NCBI GenBank assembly: GCA_900316995.1
Contig: ONEZ01000022.1
Span: 1-35,601 of the forward strand
Length of the DNA: 35,601 nt
Direction: 5' to 3'
From: an uncultured Bacteroidales bacterium
GTDB lineage: Bacteria > Bacteroidota > Bacteroidia > Bacteroidales > Paludibacteraceae
Part shown: piece after piece, positions 1,609 to 27,071 of the stretch
Position numbering within the stretch: position 1 is the stretch's first letter
Layout: the number at the start of each line of letters is the position of its first letter
Position numbers and translations under genes: made by a program
Notes under the pieces: model-generated
Database searches by the model: none
What the model was told of the DNA's origin: nothing
What the model saw: only the letters and a program-made list of their open reading frames with translations

Positions 1609-2700
1609 ATGAAACGTATCAAGAACATTATTTTGCTATTGGGTGTTACGCTTACAGCGTTCGCCCAGAATTATTATGACGACATTTATTACACAGCTCC
1701 TGTGTCTAAAAAGGCCACTATAGTGGAGCCCGTCAAGACCAAGACCACCACTACAACCACAAGTACCACCACCACCACAAGCAGTACCACTGCAAGCAGC
1801 ACCACTGCCAGCAGTGCGTCAAAAACCACACGTGATGTTGATGAGTATAACCGTTACTATTCTAACTCCGATGCAAACCGCACTGCAGAGGCGCAGCCGC
1901 AGATGGAGGATTACACATACACGGGGCGTATTGCCAAATTCTATGACCCTGAGGTGGCCACATACAAGACCATTGATGACAATGATTACACCACCACCTA
2001 CACCACAACCACCACTGAAACCACATACGTTACAGTGGTTCCTACCACCACATGGGCGCTAAGCTGGGGGTGGGGTGTCTGGTACAGACCTTGGTACAGC
2101 GCAGTGTGGTACGATCCTTGGTATGACCCATGGTACCGCCCTTGGTATGACCCGTACTGGCGCAGACCTGCACCATACCGCCCATATTATCCGTATTACA
2201 GACCAGCACCCAGACCAAGACCTTATCCAGGTCCAGGCTATGGTCCAGGACGCAATCCTGGCAGAGGCTACTCAAGCGGACACACTCGTAGCTCACAAGG
2301 TGGTTACTCAGGCGGTGGCAGAAGCGGAGGCTATTCAGGCGGAGGAAGTTACTCAGGCGGAGGAAGAGGCTATTCTGGAGGCGGAAGCTACTCTGGAGCC
2401 AGTGGAAACCATACCCGTAGCAATTCAGCAGGCTCCACACGTTCCAGCAGTCCGACACGGCCTCTGAACCCAGGCTCAAGCTCGTCATACAGCACTCCAA
2501 CACATAGTACGCCAACACACAGCACATCTACGCATAGCAGCGGCTACTCTGGAACTGGCACACGTTCAGGTGGTTCTACCAGCTTTGGAGGCGGCAGTTC
2601 TGCAGGACGTTCAGGCGGTGGTTTTAGTGGAGGCGGACGTTCAGGCGGCGGTTTTAGCGGAGGCGGACGCTCTGGCGGATTCAGCGGAGGTCGTCACTAA
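1609..2700 (+). CDS. Secreted Thr/Ser-, Tyr/Trp/Pro- and Gly-rich low-complexity protein
   Basis: This 363-residue protein has a Sec signal peptide at 1-19 (hydrophobic core IILLLGVTLTAFAQ). Four compositional zones follow: a Thr/Ser tract at about 45-75; an acidic/Thr stretch to about 145; a Trp/Tyr/Pro/Asp block at about 148-200 with repeated DPWY/RPWY units; and a Gly/Ser/Arg C-terminus from about 215 with many YSGGG and RSGGGFSGG units. The last part is encoded by a 30-bp tandem DNA repeat (2605-2694). It has no lipobox, and no enzyme domain is visible. It precedes an OmpP1-type gene by 35 bases with no terminator between, so the two are likely co-transcribed. It is most likely an envelope-associated disordered or adhesive protein, which is inference. 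The length could vary between strains through the repeats. Confidence 0.8.
   Translation: MKRIKNIILLLGVTLTAFAQNYYDDIYYTAPVSKKATIVEPVKTKTTTTTTSTTTTTSSTTASSTTASSASKTTRDVDEYNRYYSNSDANRTAEAQPQMEDYTYTGRIAKFYDPEVATYKTIDDNDYTTTYTTTTTETTYVTVVPTTTWALSWGWGVWYRPWYSAVWYDPWYDPWYRPWYDPYWRRPAPYRPYYPYYRPAPRPRPYPGPGYGPGRNPGRGYSSGHTRSSQGGYSGGGRSGGYSGGGSYSGGGRGYSGGGSYSGASGNHTRSNSAGSTRSSSPTRPLNPGSSSSYSTPTHSTPTHSTSTHSSGYSGTGTRSGGSTSFGGGSSAGRSGGGFSGGGRSGGGFSGGGRSGGFSGGRH
2605..2694 (+). repeat. 30-bp tandem coding repeat
   Basis: Three consecutive 30-base units begin GGACGTTCAGG or GGACGCTCTGG at 2605, 2635 and 2665. The first two are nearly identical; the third is diverged and a little shortened. Each encodes about ten residues of the GRSGGGFSGG type. 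The unit is a multiple of three, so copy-number change would keep the frame. Confidence 0.75.
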
Positions 2701-2735
2701 CATAAGTTGATAAAAATTAAGCATAACGCACAGAT

Positions 2736-4283
2736 ATGAACCTAAAAAAGATTTTTACAGTATTTGCATGCAGCACAGCCTCAGCATTAGCTATGGCACA
2801 ATTCCCTTTGCTCACAAACTATGACACTGCACTGTTTGGGCAGAGTGAGTTGAACGGTACAGCCAGATTTGTGGGAGTGGGCGGAGCCATGGGTGCTCTT
2901 GGCGGCGATGCCACCACCATTTTCTACAATCCAGCCGGTATAGGCATATACCGCACATCAGAGATTACAGCGTCACTCAATGTACACTGGACAAACACCA
3001 CCATGAGTGATAACAACTACACTGGCCCGCAAGAGAGGAAAGTAGCAGCAAACCTTGCTAACATAGCATACATTGGCCACTGGGATATAGGAGCTGCTAC
3101 GGGAAAAGAAAAGGGGCTGATAGGAATAAGCTTTGGCGCAGCCTATAACCGCAAGAAGAATTTTGACCGTGTAGGCAGTTACAGCACCACCAAGAACTAC
3201 TCCAAAACCCAGTTCTATGCATACGATGCCTTTGGTCAGGAGAGCCAGTATCTGACTGTCAGAAACTTTGGAAATGAAGCGGTGGGATGGCGTGCCATAA
3301 CAGGTTATGAGACCTTTATGTTTGATGAGAAGACCCCAGGGTCAAATGATTATATCTCATATTTTGACAAACTCACAGGCGGTAGCGGCAATGTGCAGGA
3401 TAGAGTCTCTTTTTCTGAGACTGGCGGCACCAATATGTTTGCAGTGAGCCTTGCAGGTAACGTAAGTAACATATTCTACCTTGGAATGAGCTTTGAGTGT
3501 GACTACACCCGTTACCAGCGTTCAGACAACTATTCAGAGCAAATGCCTAACGGGCGTACATTGAACACCACCAGTTATCTCTATCTGGCAGGTACAGCAT
3601 TCACCTACAAGGTGGGCTTTATAATCCGCCCCACTAACTGGCTTAGGATAGGTGGTGCATACCACACTCCTTCATACTACTATGTAAACAGCCAGAACTA
3701 CGCCACAGCAAATTCTAACCTTGACGGCAAGTTTGGCTCAGTGGAGACTCCTACAAACAACCAGCGTGCTAAGATTGACGCTCCTATGCAGGCTATCGCA
3801 AGCCTTGGATTTGTGCTGGGCAAGTTTGGTTTTGTGGGCATTGACTACCAGTGGTCAAACGAGTCTGGTACCAAGCTAATGAACGCATCGGGGTTGGCAC
3901 ACAACACTATAAATGACATCACTAAGCAAGATGTTGTGGATACTCACACAGTTAGAGTAGGCTTTGAGATAAAGCCGTTTGACGCCCTCTCACTGCGTAT
4001 AGGTGGAGGTTACCGCACAGCCGCAAACAAAAAGGACGCAAGCCGTTACTACTATACAGCTGACACTCGTACAGACACCCATTATATCAATGACAAGGGA
4101 GCATACAATATTACAGCTGGCTTAGGCTACCGTGTAGGCCGCCACTCACTTGATATAGCATACGTATGGCAGGTTACTAACGGAGATTACTATGAGTTCA
4201 ACACCCCTGAACTCAACGTACAGCCAATGAACATAAGAAGCGTCAGGAATCAGATTGTGTTCTCATACGGAGTACGTTTCTAA
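2736..4283 (+). CDS. OmpP1/FadL/TodX-family outer membrane protein
   Basis: This 515-residue outer membrane beta-barrel has a signal peptide ending in ALAMAQ at about residue 22. The mature N-terminus carries the family hallmark: GTARFVGVGGAMGALGGDAT followed by FYNPAGIGIY (about 42-73), as in FadL-type hydrophobic-compound transporters where this region forms the hatch. Many alternating aromatic and hydrophobic strands follow. The C-terminus ends in VRF, a typical terminal aromatic for barrel assembly. The substrate is unknown; Bacteroidota members are often labelled hemin receptor or fatty acid transporter without proof. Its 3' end overlaps the convergent lpxB by 41 bases. Confidence 0.85.
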   Translation: MNLKKIFTVFACSTASALAMAQFPLLTNYDTALFGQSELNGTARFVGVGGAMGALGGDATTIFYNPAGIGIYRTSEITASLNVHWTNTTMSDNNYTGPQERKVAANLANIAYIGHWDIGAATGKEKGLIGISFGAAYNRKKNFDRVGSYSTTKNYSKTQFYAYDAFGQESQYLTVRNFGNEAVGWRAITGYETFMFDEKTPGSNDYISYFDKLTGGSGNVQDRVSFSETGGTNMFAVSLAGNVSNIFYLGMSFECDYTRYQRSDNYSEQMPNGRTLNTTSYLYLAGTAFTYKVGFIIRPTNWLRIGGAYHTPSYYYVNSQNYATANSNLDGKFGSVETPTNNQRAKIDAPMQAIASLGFVLGKFGFVGIDYQWSNESGTKLMNASGLAHNTINDITKQDVVDTHTVRVGFEIKPFDALSLRIGGGYRTAANKKDASRYYYTADTRTDTHYINDKGAYNITAGLGYRVGRHSLDIAYVWQVTNGDYYEFNTPELNVQPMNIRSVRNQIVFSYGVRF

Positions 4284-6919: not shown

Positions 6920-8227
6920 TTAGTCATTCTTAAATATACGTTTGTCAAGTACACGTTTCTGCTTGCCCTCACTGCGCTTGAGTGAACGAGGCTCCACTAT
7001 ACGTATTGTAGGCTGAATGCCAAGCACGCTCTGAAGCTTGTGGGCAAGAGATTTCTGAAGTTTAATCATACCGTTAATATCGCTGGTGTAGTACTGCTCC
7101 TTAACCTCCACCTGTATCTCAAATGTATCTGTATTGTTAACACGGTCAACGGTGATGAAGAAATGAGGCTCAAACTCCTCTGTGTCACATATTACAGACT
7201 CTACTTGCGATGGGAAGACGTTAACGCCACGGATGATTAGCATATCGTCACAACGTCCCATAATCTTCTCCATGCGCACAGACGTACGGCCGCACTCACA
7301 CTTGTCATAAATGAGGCGTGTAAGGTCATGTGTGCGGAAACGGATAAGAGGCATACCCTCTTTTGTTAGGGTTGTGAACACAAGCTCACCAGGCTGTCCG
7401 GGTGCTACAGGCTCACCTGTCTCAGGGTTCACAATCTCAGGGAAGAAGTGGTCTTCATGCAGGTGGGTGCCGCACTGGAACTCACACTCATGGCCTACGC
7501 CAGGACCGCATATCTCTGTAAGTCCATATATATCGTAAGCCTTTATGCCAAGCTTCTTCTCTATTTCACGGCGCATCTCATTTGTCCAAGGCTCAGCTCC
7601 AAACACTCCCACGCGCAGCTTGAACTCCTCTTTTGGAATACCGGATTTCTCAATGCTTTCTGCCAAATAGAGTGCGTATGAAGGAGTGCAACAAAGAGCT
7701 TTAACACCCATGTCATGTAGCATAAGAATCTGTTTCTCTGTGTTTCCAGCTGATATAGGCACCACGGTTCCGCCTATTGTCTCCACTGCTCCGTGAGCGC
7801 CCAAACCTCCAGTGAACAGTCCGTAACCGTAAGAAACTTGCACCACATCATTCTTTCCAAGACCGTAGGCGGTAAGGCAACGCGCCCCCACCTCATTCCA
7901 TATAGCAAGGTCATTTCTAGTATATCCAACCACTATCGGTTTTCCTGTGGTGCCTGACGATGCGTGAACGCGCACAATTTCAGACATCGGGGAGGATAGA
8001 AGACCGAACGGATAATAGTCTCTGAGGTCTTGCTTACAGGTGAACGGCAGTTTTACAATATCTTCTATAGAGTTAATATCGGCAGGGGTTATGCCGGCTT
8101 TCTGCATACGGTCTCGATAAGGCTCACAATTATAGTAAACTCTCTCTACAACCTTCCTCAATCTCTTGCTTTGCAGTTCCATGCGCTCATCACGGCTCAT
8201 GCACTCTGCTGTTTTGTTCCAAATCAT
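6920..8227 (-). CDS. paaK: Phenylacetate-CoA ligase (AMP-forming)
   Basis: This 435-residue ANL-superfamily enzyme activates aryl-acetic acids to CoA thioesters through an acyl-adenylate. Visible motifs are the P-loop-like SSGTTGKPIVVGYT (about 90-103), YGYGLFTGGLG (about 133-143), the adenylation motif YDIYGLTEICGPG (about 232-244) and a cysteine pair in CECGRT (about 311-316). The C-terminal AMP-binding domain ends with an RSEGKQKRVLDKR stretch containing a lysine-rich A10-like region. In Bacteroidota the paaK-ACT pair is often found near indolepyruvate:ferredoxin oxidoreductase genes; none is in this window. A near-consensus promoter lies just upstream (8235-8266), giving a leader of only a few bases. 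Confidence 0.93.
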   Translation of the reverse strand: MIWNKTAECMSRDERMELQSKRLRKVVERVYYNCEPYRDRMQKAGITPADINSIEDIVKLPFTCKQDLRDYYPFGLLSSPMSEIVRVHASSGTTGKPIVVGYTRNDLAIWNEVGARCLTAYGLGKNDVVQVSYGYGLFTGGLGAHGAVETIGGTVVPISAGNTEKQILMLHDMGVKALCCTPSYALYLAESIEKSGIPKEEFKLRVGVFGAEPWTNEMRREIEKKLGIKAYDIYGLTEICGPGVGHECEFQCGTHLHEDHFFPEIVNPETGEPVAPGQPGELVFTTLTKEGMPLIRFRTHDLTRLIYDKCECGRTSVRMEKIMGRCDDMLIIRGVNVFPSQVESVICDTEEFEPHFFITVDRVNNTDTFEIQVEVKEQYYTSDINGMIKLQKSLAHKLQSVLGIQPTIRIVEPRSLKRSEGKQKRVLDKRIFKND

Positions 8228-8234
8228 AAGATAT

Positions 8235-8266
8235 AAAAATTAAATGATATTCGCTAATTTTTCAAA
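8235..8266 (-). promoter_or_regulatory. Predicted promoter for paaK
   Basis: On the minus strand, TTTG (8263-8266), 20 bases, then TAATTTTT (8235-8242), which is one mismatch from TAnnTTTG. It overlaps the 3' end of the upstream lipoprotein gene. The predicted start is near 8230, only about 3 bases before the ATG at 8227. Confidence 0.5.
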
Positions 8267-9738
8267 CAACGCACGCTAATAGGATCACTTTTATAACCTT
8301 CATTATTAATTCCGGGATTATCAGTATCATGGTACAAGTTAAAAGAGGTGGCGCAACCAGGCTTCTCACTATGGGGAGTGGCAGACCAAAAATACTCGGA
8401 TTTCCCCACATAAAACATATACCCTTGACCGTTAACAAGACGACCTACCGGCAACGCCGCAAAAGAATAGCTATCTGTGCCACTGCCTTTACCATGCCAC
8501 CCTGACTCATTCTTTAGTTTTTTCCCGGCTCCCGTACCTATGAAGTTTTTCAGCTGACTGAATTCCGCCTCTGTAGGTATATGCCATCCGTTAGGACATA
8601 TACCCTGACGATGACCTGTAAACGGAGTGGTACGACTCGTGTTTTCTGAAAGTCCGACTGCCGCATTCCAGCTATATACATAACCAAACTTAGCCTCGTG
8701 CTCAGACTTTATATTCTCAGCATATTCATTTGTAATCCAAGGTCTCAATAATGGATCCTGACATATATAATTAGTCGCTTTTACAGGATCTGGCAGTTCT
8801 CCTGACATTTCACTGTTAGTGTCATATTTATAGCATTTAAGATTTTCCGCCATCCAAGTCTGGTTCCCAATCTTTGTGGTACGGTATATGTTTCCTTGAC
8901 AATCCTTTACAGCCTCATACGCCACCACTGTACATGTAGATTTCACTCCATCGGCTGTAGCTGTAATAGTGGCTTCTCCATAAGAGACACATTTCACCAA
9001 ACCATTCTCCACCGATGCTATAAGGTTGTTTGACGACTCCCATTTTACATCGGGGTAGGAGGCATTATCAGGTTTAACAGTTGCTGAAAGCTGCTTTTTG
9101 TCACCTAAAGTTATAAATGATATTTCTGTTTCAGACAGCGTTACTTCTGACACCGGAACCTTTTTAACTGAAACATTACAAGTGCTGATGACATCATCAC
9201 CTTTAACTGTAATTGTGGCGCCACCCTCTTTCAAGCCTTTAACCGAACCCTTCTTATCTACAGAGGCTATATTCTCATTGCTTATTGACCAGTTCAGGCG
9301 CTCCGGATTTATACCTCCAGGTATGATGGTCATAAATTCTTCAGCATTTACTGTGCCGTTTATGTTCACCGTAAAATCCTTTAGGGTGATTTCTTCTATG
9401 GGCACGTTTGTTATTGTCACATTGCAGTTTGCACTCTTATCCTCAATGGTGGCGGTAATTTTAACATCGCCTGCACGTTTGGGTACAAGGAAAGCTCCGC
9501 TCATCTCTGCAACATTCTCATCATTTACATTCCATTGTATTTTAGCGGTTTTATTTAAACCCGCAGGTACAGTTTCAAGCTCATTCCTGAGATTTATATC
9601 CTGATTCTCTGCTATGGTATAGGTTGCACTTTTGAACCTTATACTCTCCAACTGCCCTGGCTTGCTCTCCTTTTTGCAACCTGCAAAAAACATCAGTGAC
9701 ACGATGCAGAACAAGGTCATTATTTCACATTTCTTCAT
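8254..9738 (-). CDS. Lipoprotein with three Big_2-like domains and a FISUMP domain
   Basis: This 494-residue protein has a type II signal peptide with lipobox FAGC (cysteine about 21). Three Ig-like Big_2 repeats follow (about 30-111, 112-193, 194-273), each ending in a pattern such as GxATITVKGDDVISTCNVSV. From about 275 to the end it matches the Fibrobacter succinogenes major paralogous domain: GNIYRTTKIGNQTWMAENLK near 279-298, then GICPNGWHIPTEAEF and a VRCLKN end. Such proteins are probably cell-surface adhesins or carbohydrate-facing lipoproteins; the ligand is unknown. A TAnnTTTG box at 9779-9786 would serve it. Only 26 bases separate it from paaK with no terminator, so some read-through is likely. 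Confidence 0.88.
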   Translation of the reverse strand: MKKCEIMTLFCIVSLMFFAGCKKESKPGQLESIRFKSATYTIAENQDINLRNELETVPAGLNKTAKIQWNVNDENVAEMSGAFLVPKRAGDVKITATIEDKSANCNVTITNVPIEEITLKDFTVNINGTVNAEEFMTIIPGGINPERLNWSISNENIASVDKKGSVKGLKEGGATITVKGDDVISTCNVSVKKVPVSEVTLSETEISFITLGDKKQLSATVKPDNASYPDVKWESSNNLIASVENGLVKCVSYGEATITATADGVKSTCTVVAYEAVKDCQGNIYRTTKIGNQTWMAENLKCYKYDTNSEMSGELPDPVKATNYICQDPLLRPWITNEYAENIKSEHEAKFGYVYSWNAAVGLSENTSRTTPFTGHRQGICPNGWHIPTEAEFSQLKNFIGTGAGKKLKNESGWHGKGSGTDSYSFAALPVGRLVNGQGYMFYVGKSEYFWSATPHSEKPGCATSFNLYHDTDNPGINNEGYKSDPISVRCLKN

Positions 9739-21952: not shown

Positions 21953-23416
21953 GTGAAAAAAGTAGAGATAAAAATACTTGTACGGGTATTCAGCATTCTG
22001 CTCCAGTTTGAAGCCTTTTTTCTGCTAATCTCCATGATAGTTTCACTTGTCTATGGAGAGAAGGAGTATATATACTTTCTTATTGCAGCAGGAGCCACGC
22101 TTGCAGTGAGCATTCCGGGCATTATCTTCACACGCGGAATGAGGGGCATTGGCATGGGCAAGCGTGAAGGCTTTCTCATTGTATCCCTTATTTGGATAGT
22201 ATTTACTATATTTGGAATGTTGCCGTTCTATCTGAGCGGAAGCATACCCAAGTTAGAGGACGCCTTTTTTGAGACCATGAGCGGCTTCACCACCACAGGC
22301 GCCACCATTCTCACCGATATTGACAATATGCCGGCCGGAATGTTATTCTGGCGAAGCATAACCCAGTGGCTTGGAGGCATGGGAATAATTGTGCTCTCCA
22401 TGTCAATACTTCCACTTCTCGGAGTTAGCGGTGCATCGCTGTTTGCGGCAGAAGTTCCAGGTCCTACAAAAGACAAGATTCACGCCCGCATAAGCACCAC
22501 AGCCATGATACTATGGGGCATTTACACAGTCATAACCATATTTGAGAGTTTCATACTGTGGTTGTTAGGCATGGACTACTTTGATGCTATATGCCACTCA
22601 TTCACCACCATGGCATCTGGCGGATTCTCCACCAAGGGTGCCAGCATAGCGTTCTGGGACTCACCTCTTCTGGAGTATGTGATAATTGTGTTCATGCTGA
22701 TGTCCGGCATAAACTTCACACTCTACTACCATATTATCAGAGGGCGTTTAGACAAGGTTAAAAGCAATGAGGAGCTAAAGTTCTACTTTGCCTTCATAGC
22801 CCTTTTCACACTCTCAGTGATGACAAGTCTGCTGCTGCACCACAATAATATCATGGATTTGGAGGAGGCGTTCCGCTACTCTCTGTTTAATGTAGTGGCG
22901 CTTATAACCACCACTGGTTTTGCAAACAGCGACTACACCACATGGACACCGTTTGTGTGGACCATTCTGCTTATGCTTATGGCGTTTGGCTCATGTACAG
23001 GCTCCACATCGGGTGGTATTAAGACCGTAAGAATTTCACTGCTTTTGAAGAACACCTATTGTGAGTTCCGCAGGCTCATACACCCAAGCGCAGTGGTGCC
23101 GGTAAGATTTAACGGGCAGGTTATCAAGCCAAAACTGATTGACAATGTGCAGGCTTTTGTATTCCTGTATCTGGTAATAATAGTAATTAGCCTTCTGTTC
23201 TTTACATCGTGCGGCCTCACACTTGACAATGCACTGGGAGCCGCCATATCATCAGTAAGCAATGTAGGCCCTGGAATTGGCGCATACGGCCCTATGGACA
23301 ACTACTCATCACTGCCAGTGGCGTGCAAATGGTACATGTCGTTTATGATGCTTGCAGGCCGTCTGGAACTGTTCACCGTATTTATGATATTCACACCTGC
23401 GCTCTGGAAAAAATAG
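21953..23416 (+). CDS. trkH: Trk system K+ uptake channel protein TrkH
   Basis: This 487-residue inner-membrane protein has four pore-loop repeats. The selectivity-filter stretches are visible as TTTGATILTD, TMASGGFSTKG, TTTGFANSDYT and SVSNVGPGIG, one per repeat. The start is GTG; it fits the N-terminal helix and leaves an 8-base gap after trkA. It forms the channel partner of TrkA. The stop codon overlaps the start of the next gene by one base (TAGTG). Confidence 0.94.
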   Translation: MKKVEIKILVRVFSILLQFEAFFLLISMIVSLVYGEKEYIYFLIAAGATLAVSIPGIIFTRGMRGIGMGKREGFLIVSLIWIVFTIFGMLPFYLSGSIPKLEDAFFETMSGFTTTGATILTDIDNMPAGMLFWRSITQWLGGMGIIVLSMSILPLLGVSGASLFAAEVPGPTKDKIHARISTTAMILWGIYTVITIFESFILWLLGMDYFDAICHSFTTMASGGFSTKGASIAFWDSPLLEYVIIVFMLMSGINFTLYYHIIRGRLDKVKSNEELKFYFAFIALFTLSVMTSLLLHHNNIMDLEEAFRYSLFNVVALITTTGFANSDYTTWTPFVWTILLMLMAFGSCTGSTSGGIKTVRISLLLKNTYCEFRRLIHPSAVVPVRFNGQVIKPKLIDNVQAFVFLYLVIIVISLLFFTSCGLTLDNALGAAISSVSNVGPGIGAYGPMDNYSSLPVACKWYMSFMMLAGRLELFTVFMIFTPALWKK

Positions 23417-24477
23417 TGAAAATATTTGACAAATTTCCGTTCCTAAAAAAGATTGCCACATTTCAGGCACCCCCAGGCCTCTCTTTAGAGCAGGCTTCAG
23501 GAGAGAGTGCCGCTCTATTCAAAGCGCAGGTAATAGAAAGTACTCTTGGTGTAAAACAGTTCACCACTGCCGATATGACAGGCGGCATGGGTATTGACAC
23601 TCTTTTTATAAGCGCATTTGGGAGCAGACCAGCCACCTACATAGAGCGTAGCGCAGAGCTTTGCCGTATAGCCACAGATAATTTCAAAGCCGCTTGCGGC
23701 GATGCGCACCACATTAGCGTAGTGAACGCAGATAGCGTTGAGTACCTTCTCAATAGGTCAGACCACTACGATGTCATCTTTGCAGACCCTGCACGTCGTT
23801 CAGTATCAGGCAGGAAACTGGTGAGCATATCAGACTGCGAACCAAACCTGCTGCCACACATTGGAACCCTTATGAGCAAATGCCGGCTGCTTGCAGTAAA
23901 ATTATCACCCATGCTTGACATCAGCGTGGCGTTACAAGAGCTTAAGCACGTAACAGACCTTTATGTGGTGGGGGCTGACGGAGAGTGCAAGGAGCTGCTC
24001 GCACTGCTCTCTGACGCAGGCACAGGATGCCAGACTAAAATACATTGTGTCACTCTGCCACAAAACAACATGCCATTTACATTCACACTTGAAGGCGAAC
24101 GCAGCGCCACAGTGAAGTATTCCATGCCGCAGCATTACCTCTATGAACCATCACCGGCGTTGCTCAAAGCAGGAGCTTTCAAAAGCATAGGAGAGCGATA
24201 CGGGTTAGGTAAGCTCCACCCAAACAGCCACCTCTACACATCAGAGACGTTTGTGGAGAATTTCCCAGGCAGGACATTTGAAATAACAGATATAAGAAAA
24301 GTCCATAAACCACAGTTCAAAGACATAGAAAGGGCCAACCTCACCATCCGAAACTTCCCCACCTCAGTGGCTGAGATACGCAGGAACATTGGAGTAAAGG
24401 AGGGCGGAGACACCTATCTCTTTGCAACTACATTTATGGATAACTCCAAAAGAATTATTGTATGCAAGAGAATATAG
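23416..24477 (+). CDS. PG_1098-type class I SAM methyltransferase with THUMP-like domain
   Basis: This 353-residue protein belongs to a largely Bacteroidota family typified by Porphyromonas PG_1098. It has an N-terminal helical part, a Rossmann methyltransferase core with TADMTGGMGIDTLFIS (about 51-66) as SAM motif I and FADPARRSVSGRK (about 116-128) as an N/DPPY-like motif, then a ferredoxin-like segment and a C-terminal THUMP-like domain (from about 280). An RNA substrate is likely but unproven. The GTG at 23416 overlaps the trkH stop by one base and is preferred to an upstream ATG at 23323 lying inside trkH. The last two codons and stop lie in the left arm of the structured element at 24467-24606. 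Confidence 0.85.
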   Translation: MKIFDKFPFLKKIATFQAPPGLSLEQASGESAALFKAQVIESTLGVKQFTTADMTGGMGIDTLFISAFGSRPATYIERSAELCRIATDNFKAACGDAHHISVVNADSVEYLLNRSDHYDVIFADPARRSVSGRKLVSISDCEPNLLPHIGTLMSKCRLLAVKLSPMLDISVALQELKHVTDLYVVGADGECKELLALLSDAGTGCQTKIHCVTLPQNNMPFTFTLEGERSATVKYSMPQHYLYEPSPALLKAGAFKSIGERYGLGKLHPNSHLYTSETFVENFPGRTFEITDIRKVHKPQFKDIERANLTIRNFPTSVAEIRRNIGVKEGGDTYLFATTFMDNSKRIIVCKRI

Positions 24478-24606
24478 ACTACATCGTAAGGCTCAGCCCC
24501 TTTGTAAGGGGCTTCGTCCCTCCCATACGGGTCTGTGACCCTATGGGTCCCTCCCGCTATACGTCTCCGCGGGTGGAGACGCTTACTCATGCAGTCTATA
24601 TTCTCT
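24467..24606. other. 140-bp multi-stem palindromic element with terminal inverted repeats
   Basis: Perfect 14-bp terminal inverted repeats (AGAGAATATAGACT at 24467-24480 and its complement at 24593-24606) enclose three hairpins. Stem 1 is 24496-24502 with 24506-24512 (7 bp, loop TGT). Stem 2 is 24522-24533 with 24537-24547 (11 bp with one bulged C, loop TGT). Stem 3 is 24562-24568 with 24575-24581 (7 bp, 6-base loop). GTCCCTCCC occurs at 24516-24524 and again at 24547-24555, between the stems. The layout is cloverleaf-like. No coding ORF, tRNA T-loop or transposase is present. Possible identities are a non-autonomous mobile palindrome, a structured untranslated RNA or a processing/termination site. 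The left arm contains the stop codon of the upstream gene. Confidence 0.8.
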
Positions 24607-24645
24607 AACTTTCAATTTTCAACTTTCAACTTTCAATTTTCAACT
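24607..24645 (+). repeat. AACTTTC heptamer tandem repeat in the mutS2 leader
   Basis: Five heptamers (AACTTTC or AATTTTC) plus AACT run without interruption from the end of the palindromic element to 5 bases before the mutS2 ATG. The region has no Shine-Dalgarno motif. The unit is one base different from that before mce. Confidence 0.92.
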
Positions 24646-24650
24646 AATAT

Positions 24651-27071
24651 ATGTTATACCCAATAAATACAATTGAAAGTAAGCTCGGCTTCACGCAGGT
24701 ACGGGAGCTGCTGAAACAGCACTGCCTCAGCACACTTGGGCGCAGCGTGGTTGATGCCATGCAGTTCTCCACGTCAAGAGCCGACATAGTGAAACGCTTA
24801 GGGCAGACCAGTGAGTTTATGCGGCTTATGGAGGAGAATGACAACTTTCCACGTGACTACTGGTTTGACACTCGTGAGTACCTGCGTCGCATAACGCCAG
24901 AAGGAACGTTCCTTACTGAAAGTGAATTGTTTGAAATACGCCGCTCACTCGGCGCCATAGCCGCCATAGTAACATTTATGAGCGTAAAAAGTGAGGACAG
25001 CTACCCTCATCTTAAAGCATTGGCAGAGAGAGTTGAGCCGTCAGAGCCTATATGCCGCCATATTGACACAATACTTAACAAGTTCGGCCGAATAAAAGAT
25101 GACGCTACCGCTGAACTGCTACGCATACGGCGCAGCAAAGCGGCAGAAACATCGGCAGCCTCAAAACTTCTCACACAGATACTTGCCTCAGCCAAGGAGA
25201 ACGCCTACGTGGAGAAGGACGTAACCCCCACCCTGCGTGAAGGACGCCTTGTTATTCCAGTATCGCCGGCATTCAAGCGCAAGATAGGAGGAATAGTGCA
25301 TGATGAGTCAGCATCGGGGAAGACAGTGTATATAGAGCCTACACAAGTGGTGGAGGCTAACAACCGCATAAGGGAACTGGAGATTGACGAGCAGCATGAG
25401 GTTATGCGCATACTAAAGAACTGCTCAGACTTTATCCGCCCCAGCATACCTCAGCTTGAAAAATCTTACCGTTTCCTTGGCATTATTGACTTTATACAGG
25501 CCAAAAGCCGTTTTGCTTCTGAGATAGGCGCACATTGCCATATACCATCAGAGAGACCGCAGATGGAGTGGTACAATGCAGTTCACCCTCTGCTGCTTCT
25601 ACAACTTAAACCGCAAAATAAAGACGTGGTTCCACTTAACATAAAACTTACGGCAGAGAACCGCATACTTATTATTTCAGGTCCTAACGCAGGCGGCAAA
25701 TCAGTATGTCTTAAAACAGTGGGGCTGGTGCAATATATGATTCAGTGCGGAATGCCTGTAATAATGCAGGACGGGAGCCGTACAGGCATATTTGAGAGCA
25801 TATTCATTGACATAGGCGACGAGCAGTCAATAGAGAATGACCTGAGCACCTACAGTTCACACCTTACAAACATGAAATACTTCCTGAAATATTCAGGAGA
25901 ACGTTCTCTTATTCTTATAGATGAGTTTGGCACTGGCACTGAGCCAAATATAGGAGGCGCCATAGCAGAGGCGGAACTTGAAGTGCTTAACGCCAAAAAA
26001 AGCTACGGGGTTATAACCACCCACTACACAAACCTCAAACATCTTGCAGGCCAGACACCGGGGCTTGTGAACGGAGCCATGCTCTATGACCGACACCGCA
26101 TGGAGCCTCTCTTCCAGCTTGAGATAGGCAGCCCTGGCAGCTCATTTGCAATAGAGATAGCCAAGAAAATAGGTCTGCCGGCAGAGATAATAGAGAGCGC
26201 CACACGCAAGGTGGGGGCAGAGCATATAGACTATGACAAGAACCTGCAGGACGCTGCACGTGACAAACGCTACTGGGAGAACAAGCGTGAGCAGATACGA
26301 ATAAAGGAGAAGAAGACAGATGAGGCACTGGCACAGCTGCAAAAGCAGCTTGAGGGTATAAACGCAGAGCGCAAGGAGATACTGCGCCGTGCTAAAGAAG
26401 AGGCAAAAGAGCTGCTTAGCCAGACCAACGCCACCATAGAGAATACAATACGTGAGATCAAGGAGGCACATGCAGAGAAAGAGCGCACCCGTGAAATACG
26501 CCGTGAATTCAATGAGCAGCAGAAAGAGTTAAAGAAAGAGGACACAGACACAATACGCATCAAGGGCATACGAACATCATCAGCTCATCAAAAAGCTGAA
26601 ACAGAAAGCTTTGCCGTGGGAGATTACGTAAAATACGGCAGCAGCATAGGTCAGGTTATTGAAGTAAAAGGCAAAAAACTCATTATAGCCATAGGGCAAA
26701 TGGAAGCCACCGTTGATGCAGGCAAAGTGGAGAAATCAAGCCGCAAGCTCTTCAAAGAGAGCATCAAGGGCACCTCAACCTACATAAGCAAGGAGACCGC
26801 CGATAACATACGCCAGCGTAAACTGAACTTTAAGAGCGATATTGACGTACGCGGAATGAGGGCGCAGGAGGCTGTTGAAACCATAGCCTACTTTATAGAC
26901 GACGCCATTATAGTGGGGGCAAGCCAAGTGCGTATTCTGCACGGTACCGGCACAGGAGCACTCAAGCAGTACATACGTGAATACCTTGACACCATAAGCA
27001 TGGTACGCTCCTACCGCAATGAGCATATACAGCTTGGCGGCGCAGGAATTACAATAGTGGAGTTTAGGTAA
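24651..27071 (+). CDS. mutS2: MutS2-family ATPase/endonuclease
   Basis: This 806-residue protein has the MutS core and ATPase without the mismatch-recognition domain. Visible are Walker A GPNAGGKS (344-351), the Walker B region LILIDEFGTGTEPNIGG (about 422-438), ITTHYTNLKHLAG, a long charged coiled coil (about 520-645), a KOW-like segment and a C-terminal Smr nuclease domain (about 730-806) with DVRGMRAQEAVE and HGTGTGALK. Family members suppress recombination or split collided ribosomes; which applies here cannot be read from sequence. The length is normal. The leader is unusual (heptamer repeat preceded by the structured element). Confidence 0.95.
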   Translation: MLYPINTIESKLGFTQVRELLKQHCLSTLGRSVVDAMQFSTSRADIVKRLGQTSEFMRLMEENDNFPRDYWFDTREYLRRITPEGTFLTESELFEIRRSLGAIAAIVTFMSVKSEDSYPHLKALAERVEPSEPICRHIDTILNKFGRIKDDATAELLRIRRSKAAETSAASKLLTQILASAKENAYVEKDVTPTLREGRLVIPVSPAFKRKIGGIVHDESASGKTVYIEPTQVVEANNRIRELEIDEQHEVMRILKNCSDFIRPSIPQLEKSYRFLGIIDFIQAKSRFASEIGAHCHIPSERPQMEWYNAVHPLLLLQLKPQNKDVVPLNIKLTAENRILIISGPNAGGKSVCLKTVGLVQYMIQCGMPVIMQDGSRTGIFESIFIDIGDEQSIENDLSTYSSHLTNMKYFLKYSGERSLILIDEFGTGTEPNIGGAIAEAELEVLNAKKSYGVITTHYTNLKHLAGQTPGLVNGAMLYDRHRMEPLFQLEIGSPGSSFAIEIAKKIGLPAEIIESATRKVGAEHIDYDKNLQDAARDKRYWENKREQIRIKEKKTDEALAQLQKQLEGINAERKEILRRAKEEAKELLSQTNATIENTIREIKEAHAEKERTREIRREFNEQQKELKKEDTDTIRIKGIRTSSAHQKAETESFAVGDYVKYGSSIGQVIEVKGKKLIIAIGQMEATVDAGKVEKSSRKLFKESIKGTSTYISKETADNIRQRKLNFKSDIDVRGMRAQEAVETIAYFIDDAIIVGASQVRILHGTGTGALKQYIREYLDTISMVRSYRNEHIQLGGAGITIVEFR

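Follow-up and report, generated by a model that had tools for sequence, protein, structure and literature searches.

Results

A palindromic element at a gene end

The window, by which we mean the whole 35,601-nucleotide stretch of DNA analysed here, contains an element of 140 bases (24467..24606) near the 3' end of ORF 23323-24477, flanked by the genes of a PG_1098/THUMP-like methyltransferase-type protein and a MutS2-type protein (Table 1). An earlier note, made from the sequence alone, had described perfect 14-bp terminal inverted repeats, the left one containing the stop codon of the methyltransferase gene, enclosing three hairpins, two with the same TGT loop, and a nine-base repeat between the stems. 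We confirmed the terminal repeats, the stop codon, both TGT-loop hairpins and the repeat, but the supposed third hairpin resolved into two interleaved pairings, S1 and S2, both of which covary. The core of about 95 bases is a cloverleaf of two TGT-loop hairpins and these two interleaved helices, and a small internal loop lies between the inner stem (GTAAG/CTTAC) and the outer arms. With one base between S1' and S2', a strict H-type pseudoknot would be cramped, and S1 and S2 may form as alternative hairpins instead of pairing at the same time as a pseudoknot.

None of 200 shuffles matched the fold of this sequence, either as RNA (24460-24615, z -7.1) or as DNA (24467-24606, z -8.7). A terminator scan found no terminator-like site in 24300-24800, and a TTTT tract comes after the right arm in just 7 of 57 copies of the family; we rejected a terminator reading on these grounds. 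A repeat of the AACTTTCAATTTTCAACTTTCAA type adjoins the element (window 24604-24643); it occurs at many places in the genus in either orientation and is inverted at the orthologous site in G012 (genomes are denoted here by G, contigs by C, and copies or their sites by L numbers).

Table 1. Features of the element in the window
Feature	Position	Strand	Remarks
Left outer arm AGAGAATATAGACT	24467..24480	+	Pairs with right arm; private by arm test; contains TAG stop of ORF 23323-24477
Inner stem, 5' side GTAAG	24486..24490	+	5/5 pairs changed on both sides; 81.8% of cells paired
Hairpin 1, TGT loop	24495..24513	+	7/8 pairs changed on both sides; 96.0% paired
Spacer GTCCCTCCC, first copy	24516..24524	+	Read directly; CCxTCCC columns invariant or nearly so across aligned copies
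Hairpin 2, TGT loop	24522..24547	+	5/11 pairs changed on both sides; 94.8% paired
Spacer GTCCCTCCC, second copy	24547..24555	+	Read directly from the sequence
Interleaved helix S1, CCCGC (24553-24557) with GCGGG (24569-24573)	24553..24573	+	100% of cells paired; 1/5 pairs varies
Interleaved helix S2, CGTCTCC (24562-24568) with GGAGACG (24575-24581)	24562..24581	+	5/7 pairs changed on both sides; 91.5% paired; pseudoknot-type with S1
Inner stem, 3' side CTTAC	24582..24586	+	Partner of GTAAG 24486-24490; from covariation alignment
Right outer arm AGTCTATATTCTCT	24593..24606	+	Exact inverted copy of left arm; site palindrome-free in G012, which lacks the element

A dispersed family with covarying stems

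Searching with blastn for other copies, as had been proposed, revealed 24 matches at about 22 loci in the element's own genome, two of the loci giving two stretches each where a copy is interrupted. Among 61 genomes searched (its own, 15 congeners and 45 others), copies were present in 6 of the 16 belonging to the genus and in none of the 45 outside it; the genomes compared are mostly many-contig drafts, the carriers 78-96% complete and the element's own assembly 83% complete. An exact pattern scan of named genomes matched 11 stretches, in uncultured Bacteroidales RUG163 (9) and RUG12191 (1) and in Paludibacteraceae Horse_feces165 (1). Viral contigs had no match to an exact 29-base pattern and plasmids and phages none to the 98-base core by blastn, and our searches of open-licence PMC papers turned up no description of this element family.

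Copies sit between genes or at gene ends. Among 71 fetched matches (L023 counted twice, neighbouring genes taken from a simple ORF script), 66 had neighbours on both sides, with 53 lying between co-directional genes, 8 between divergent and 5 between convergent ones; the co-directional placements comprise 32 against the direction of the genes and 21 along it. The element is a dispersed, non-coding, intergenic palindromic DNA family confined to one genus within the genomes searched. The proposal of a non-autonomous mobile palindrome was borne out as far as a dispersed repeat is concerned, with near-identical cores at unrelated loci and differences in presence and absence among relatives.

Of the 71 matches we aligned the 57 with near-complete cores, dropping interrupted and truncated copies before the covariation and arm counts. 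The named structure pairs in 93.3% of cells, and 23 of its 36 pairs show double changes; double-change cells number 303 against 85 in shuffles, a count reached by none of 500, and controls with the structure slid gave at most 52, while further pair types did not rise above shuffles (286 of 500). S1 pairs in every lettered cell, and its variable pair occurs as GC (23), AU (21), CG (11) and UA (1) across 56 distinct rows. The idea that the element might be a one-off, with no second copy and no covariation, fails on both counts. The TGT loop of hairpin 1 is invariant and the CCCTCCC spacers are conserved across the 57 cores.

Stem covariation is usually read as selection on RNA. The non-Watson-Crick cells here comprise 22 G·T, 36 A·C and 98 others, G·T and A·C being alike rare, and, since selection on a plus-strand RNA should put G·T well above A·C, the pairing looks DNA-level. 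Rfam gave no match in the window at gathering score, and at E up to 5 only four sub-threshold matches (E 0.99-4.3), none of them credible.

Outer arms match themselves and are often locus-specific

Complementarity between the two 38-base flanks was 15-24 in all 57 copies, against a maximum of 14 over 1140 shuffles. Paired with the arms of other copies it averaged 8.2, and in 48 of 57 copies no other right arm paired better than the copy's own; for the copy in the window, one of 300 shuffles of its 60-base flanks scored as high as the arms themselves (18). Private arms, like those of no other copy, were found in 17 of 57 copies; the remaining 40 failed this strict test and many plainly share arms, with two large groups of the GGAATATCTGTTRCAA and TATATATACCC types. 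Since so many copies have arms in common, the arms must also travel with the element, and every subfamily seen has a short element-borne inner stem next to the core. In eight TCGG-type copies of G000 and G012, picked by eye, mean identity was 0.89 in the core and 0.36 in the outer arm; in these copies the two arms change together and at a much higher rate than the core. Two pairs of copies, L012/L064 and L069/L068b, are alike by eye in the inner part of the arm only.

A check for target-site duplications was negative: flush direct repeats were no longer than in permutations (mean 1.21 against 1.22; 101 of 200), the arm ends being fuzzy. The most perfect arms belong to L025 (~1031-1242, G000:C32), with 29 bp exact and 31/32 in the extended arm, and this is perhaps the youngest copy. 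Palindromes that have the arms and lack the core occur at G012:C28:13678-13716, C33:93513-93546 and C51:55218-55243 and at G000:C14:76379, and are either deletion products or a simpler repeat.

Element-free sites and apparently native arms

Empty sites, which the earlier note had suggested looking for, were found in relatives. At five of them complementarity across the site lay within the range of shuffles (reached by 275, 39, 86, 291 and 33 of 300), and at the eight filled sites compared it was 17-30, reached by 0 of 300 shuffles at each except the window (1 of 300). In 26 site-by-relative comparisons with a movable split, 19 showed no inverted repeat beyond 60 shuffles and seven showed other inverted repeats above all 60 (L018 in G003; L081 in G002; L088 in G002 and G000; L084 in G000, G001 and G010). 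The 25-base arms of the filled copy were absent from all 11 element-free sites tested, namely these seven and four more, which hold other sequence. The L018 site in G003 (L166) is element-free and has a different inverted repeat, AAACCTTG...CAAGGTTT, in place.

At roughly five sites one arm appears, by eye, to be native and the other its inverted copy. In the window, about 9 bases of the left arm overlap the K-R-I end of the gene (R-K-I in G012, by eye). By codons compared by eye, the expectation that the inserted element had supplied a new gene end is borne out in part: the gene stops here after K R I, and in the element-free G012 it continues (...R K I E S stop). The last codons common to both, however, fall within the left arm or next to it, and the gene itself probably contributed some of that arm. 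The left arm of L068b extends into V-K-G-D-R-stop (V-K-G-N-R in G010), with its inverted copy beyond the core; the left arm of L070 and the right arm of L013 lie, by eye, within gene 3' ends that relatives also have. The outer part of the left arm of L081 aligns to G001, in an alignment that ends 14 bases short of the core; on their own, the inner 25 bases do no better than shuffles in G001, the right side of G001 is unrelated, and the arm is absent in G002. At the L099 site the element-free G010 reads TAA-AAATCTGTGTAT and has a 6-bp palindrome as well; in G001 the element is preceded by TAA-TATACAGATTT, which is almost an inverted copy.

Neither arm of L064, L086, L084 or L088 was recognised in the relatives' sites. 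The comparison sites for L066, L084, L086 (G002, G010) and L088 (G002, G000) hold other sequence and are uninformative on a native arm, as is the rearranged L025 site in G012. The element is itself present at the L018 site of G001 and the L068a site of G010, and the L020 site of G012 retains a scrap resembling an element end, making it no clean empty site.

Core orientation differs between orthologous sites

Between orthologous flanks the core lies in opposite orientation at eight sites (L009/L061; L014/L070; L023 against L076, L087 and L096; L021 and L060 against L100; L073 against L090 and L103; L078 against L075 and L098; L092/L102; L068a/L153) and in the same orientation at nine (L018/L093, L021/L060, L065/L074, L068b/L099, L075/L098, L076/L087/L096, L083/L095, L090/L103, L091/L101), some sites being in both lists through different pairs. 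The same-site survey, which included the interrupted or truncated L021, L023 and L100 and in which L018/L093 aligned on one side only, gave 13 same and 13 opposite pairs, of which 11 pairs at nine sites and 12 pairs at seven sites were kept; L009/L069 (47 bases aligned) and two pairs with L090_1785 (neighbouring flank) were set aside, and the L068a/L153 flip comes from a separate comparison outside these 26 pairs. The closest flipped pairs are L078/L098 (flanks 92% identical) and L092/L102 (89%), with the caveat that draft assemblies could join a repeated core in the wrong orientation. In L092/L102 the inner stem flipped together with the core and the outer arms differ concertedly. Both arms changed together at L092/L102, L073/L103 and L075/L098, which is also compatible with independent re-insertion, and the palindrome of L061 extends by eye further into the flank than that of L009 at the same site.

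Discussion

Origin of the arms

We lean towards the view that template switching during replication redraws the arms of this dispersed non-coding palindrome and sometimes flips its core. After the element lands, a polymerase switching templates across the hairpin would copy one flank to the other side, which would create, extend and homogenise the arms, and such switching would sometimes invert the core. A single process would cover the concerted arms, the inverted copies of flanks, the extension of palindromes and the flipping of cores. Published accounts describe template switching between inverted repeats that yields both arm homogenisation and spacer inversion (PMC8604942) and that makes or mends hairpin stems in a single event (PMC8794818), although the yeast spacer inversions in the former alter 2-5 bases (PMC8604942), against the roughly 100 needed here. 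Template switching leaves the dispersal of the element and its conserved unpaired bases unexplained, and both point to a further mover or binding factor.

Two other accounts place the origin of the arms elsewhere, and we regard each as unlikely. The first has insertion itself make the arms: single-stranded DNA of the element is attached to a nicked target, the 3' end of this DNA turns back onto the short inner stem, and the flank is copied by polymerase before rejoining, such that the folded element would prime synthesis on its own flank and insertion would leave an inverted rather than a direct target duplication, building site-specific arms. This accounts for the same arms in one step and is favoured by the short inner stem beside the core in all subfamilies seen, by a native arm with its inverted copy at roughly five sites (by eye), by the lack of direct target duplication, and by copies alike in the inner arm only (L012/L064 and L069/L068b, by eye); it is opposed by the four sites without a native arm, by the arms common to many copies, and by our finding no candidate enzyme. 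The second holds, with a similarly small chance in our judgement, that elements inserted independently at a few permissive intergenic spots, each lineage inheriting its arms with neither template switching nor inversion. Other repeats do occupy the same spots (an element with a GIY-YIG ORF at the L068a site in G001, other sequence at the L086 site in G002 and G010), two large groups have arms in common, and at four sites the arms are absent in relatives, yet native arms with inverted copies and private arms on near-identical cores are left unexplained. Same-site copies that differ in arms or orientation could be independent insertions, and some of the same-site observations are accounted for by re-insertion of this kind at permissive spots.

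A functional structured RNA, such as a 3' UTR element or small RNA with its stems under selection, was one of the possibilities first raised, and we now consider it quite improbable. The strong covariation, including a pseudoknot-type pair, the invariant TGT loop of hairpin 1 and the conserved CCCTCCC spacers would suit such an RNA, but G-T cells are not in excess of A-C, where G-U should be favoured on the plus strand, copies lie in both orientations relative to genes, core orientation differs between orthologous sites, and there is no Rfam match. Least probable of all is entry of the element into the loops of pre-existing hairpins such as terminators, the arms being the target's own palindrome: coreless palindromes with the same arm sequence in G012 and G000, the seven element-free comparisons with inverted repeats above all shuffles and the 6-bp palindrome of G010 at the L099 site could be cited for it, but the element-free site tests disfavour insertion into ready-made palindromes, with no palindrome beyond shuffles at five of five sites or in 19 of the 26 wider comparisons and with the filled copy's arms absent in 11 of 11, the seven palindromic ones included, and TTTT is scarce after the right arm and 24300-24800 contains no terminator-like site.

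Relation to known repeats and candidate movers

What is ordinary about the family is a dispersed intergenic palindrome; what is unusual is a covarying interleaved core combined with self-matching, often locus-specific arms, and by the features compared none of the Rfam, REP or MITE families, a match to which the earlier note had said would make it described, takes it in. REP/BIME sequences, associated with RAYT, IS200/IS605-like transposases, are likewise short, palindromic, multicopy, intergenic and non-coding, but REPs are 20-40 bp with a GTAG or CGTC tag at one end (PMC3733652), whereas the present element is about 140 bp and multi-helix with variable arms, and by eye 4 of the 57 rows have GTAG immediately next to the core. 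A RAYT/Y1 transposase (PF01797) was found in none of the six carrier drafts (78-96% complete), an absence that is provisional, and in 2 of 10 non-carriers of the genus. Stand-alone GIY-YIG proteins, matched by frames of about 100 aa, were found among the six carriers in G001 and G003 only, with none in G010; G000, G002 and G012 have one GIY-YIG match each, of 605-626 aa and UvrC-like by size. We rejected RAYT and stand-alone GIY-YIG proteins as movers, as the assembly of the element's own genome (83% complete) holds neither.

MITEs are also short, non-coding and dispersed, with inverted-repeat ends; their terminal repeats are kept family-wide, and they usually have target-site duplications. 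In the present family, by contrast, outer arms vary between copies (17 of 57 private, others in common) and direct duplication is absent. Modular palindromic repeats such as pneumococcal BOX, ERIC, Bacillus bcr1 and Rickettsia RPE are likewise stem-loop repeats of about 100-200 bp, sometimes modular or nested, but to our knowledge neither complementary arms specific to a locus nor interleaved helices that covary have been described for them. Mitochondrial double-hairpin elements are likewise mobile palindromes, but organellar. As far as is known they are simpler than the element here, and we know of no transposase for them. Template-switch (quasipalindrome) mutation also yields inverted copies, arm homogenisation and spacer inversion (PMC8604942, PMC8794818), but it is a mutational process and not a repeat family, and in the present case it would have to operate on many copies of one element and invert a core of about 100 bp.

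As the arms of this family pair almost perfectly, are partly locus-specific and are partly copies of host flanks, replication may be what makes the pairing, a caution for covariation-based RNA discovery. The many copies across related genomes offer a natural experiment in the birth, lengthening and flipping of bacterial palindromes and, if the arms arise at insertion, an insertion signature that we do not know from any described element.

Repeats within and beside the element

Hairpin modules of about 60-80 bp, often GGCATAATC...GCTTCTGC, lie inside L016, L019, L021, L024-L027, L077 and L100, located between or within the core hairpins; L077 and L082 give the sequences after and before such an insertion, and in L025 the module follows hairpin 1. 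With L025 as the query, 10 of 15 genomes of the genus gave short matches to such a module. In G001 (L161 ~2700-3097; G001:C20 ~8083-8480) a small GIY-YIG ORF lies between GTCATTCTGAGCGAAGCG-type inverted repeats, at the intergenic spot that holds the element in G012 and G010, and a stand-alone GIY-YIG match lies beside the same genes at G003:C11 ~30955. A second cloverleaf-like repeat, with a CCCCACCTTCGTGGGTCCCCTCCC core and GTTGATGC/GCATCAAC arms, follows a GGAATATCTGTTACAACGTAAGG arm at L192 ~1500-1680 (G012:C75:4484).
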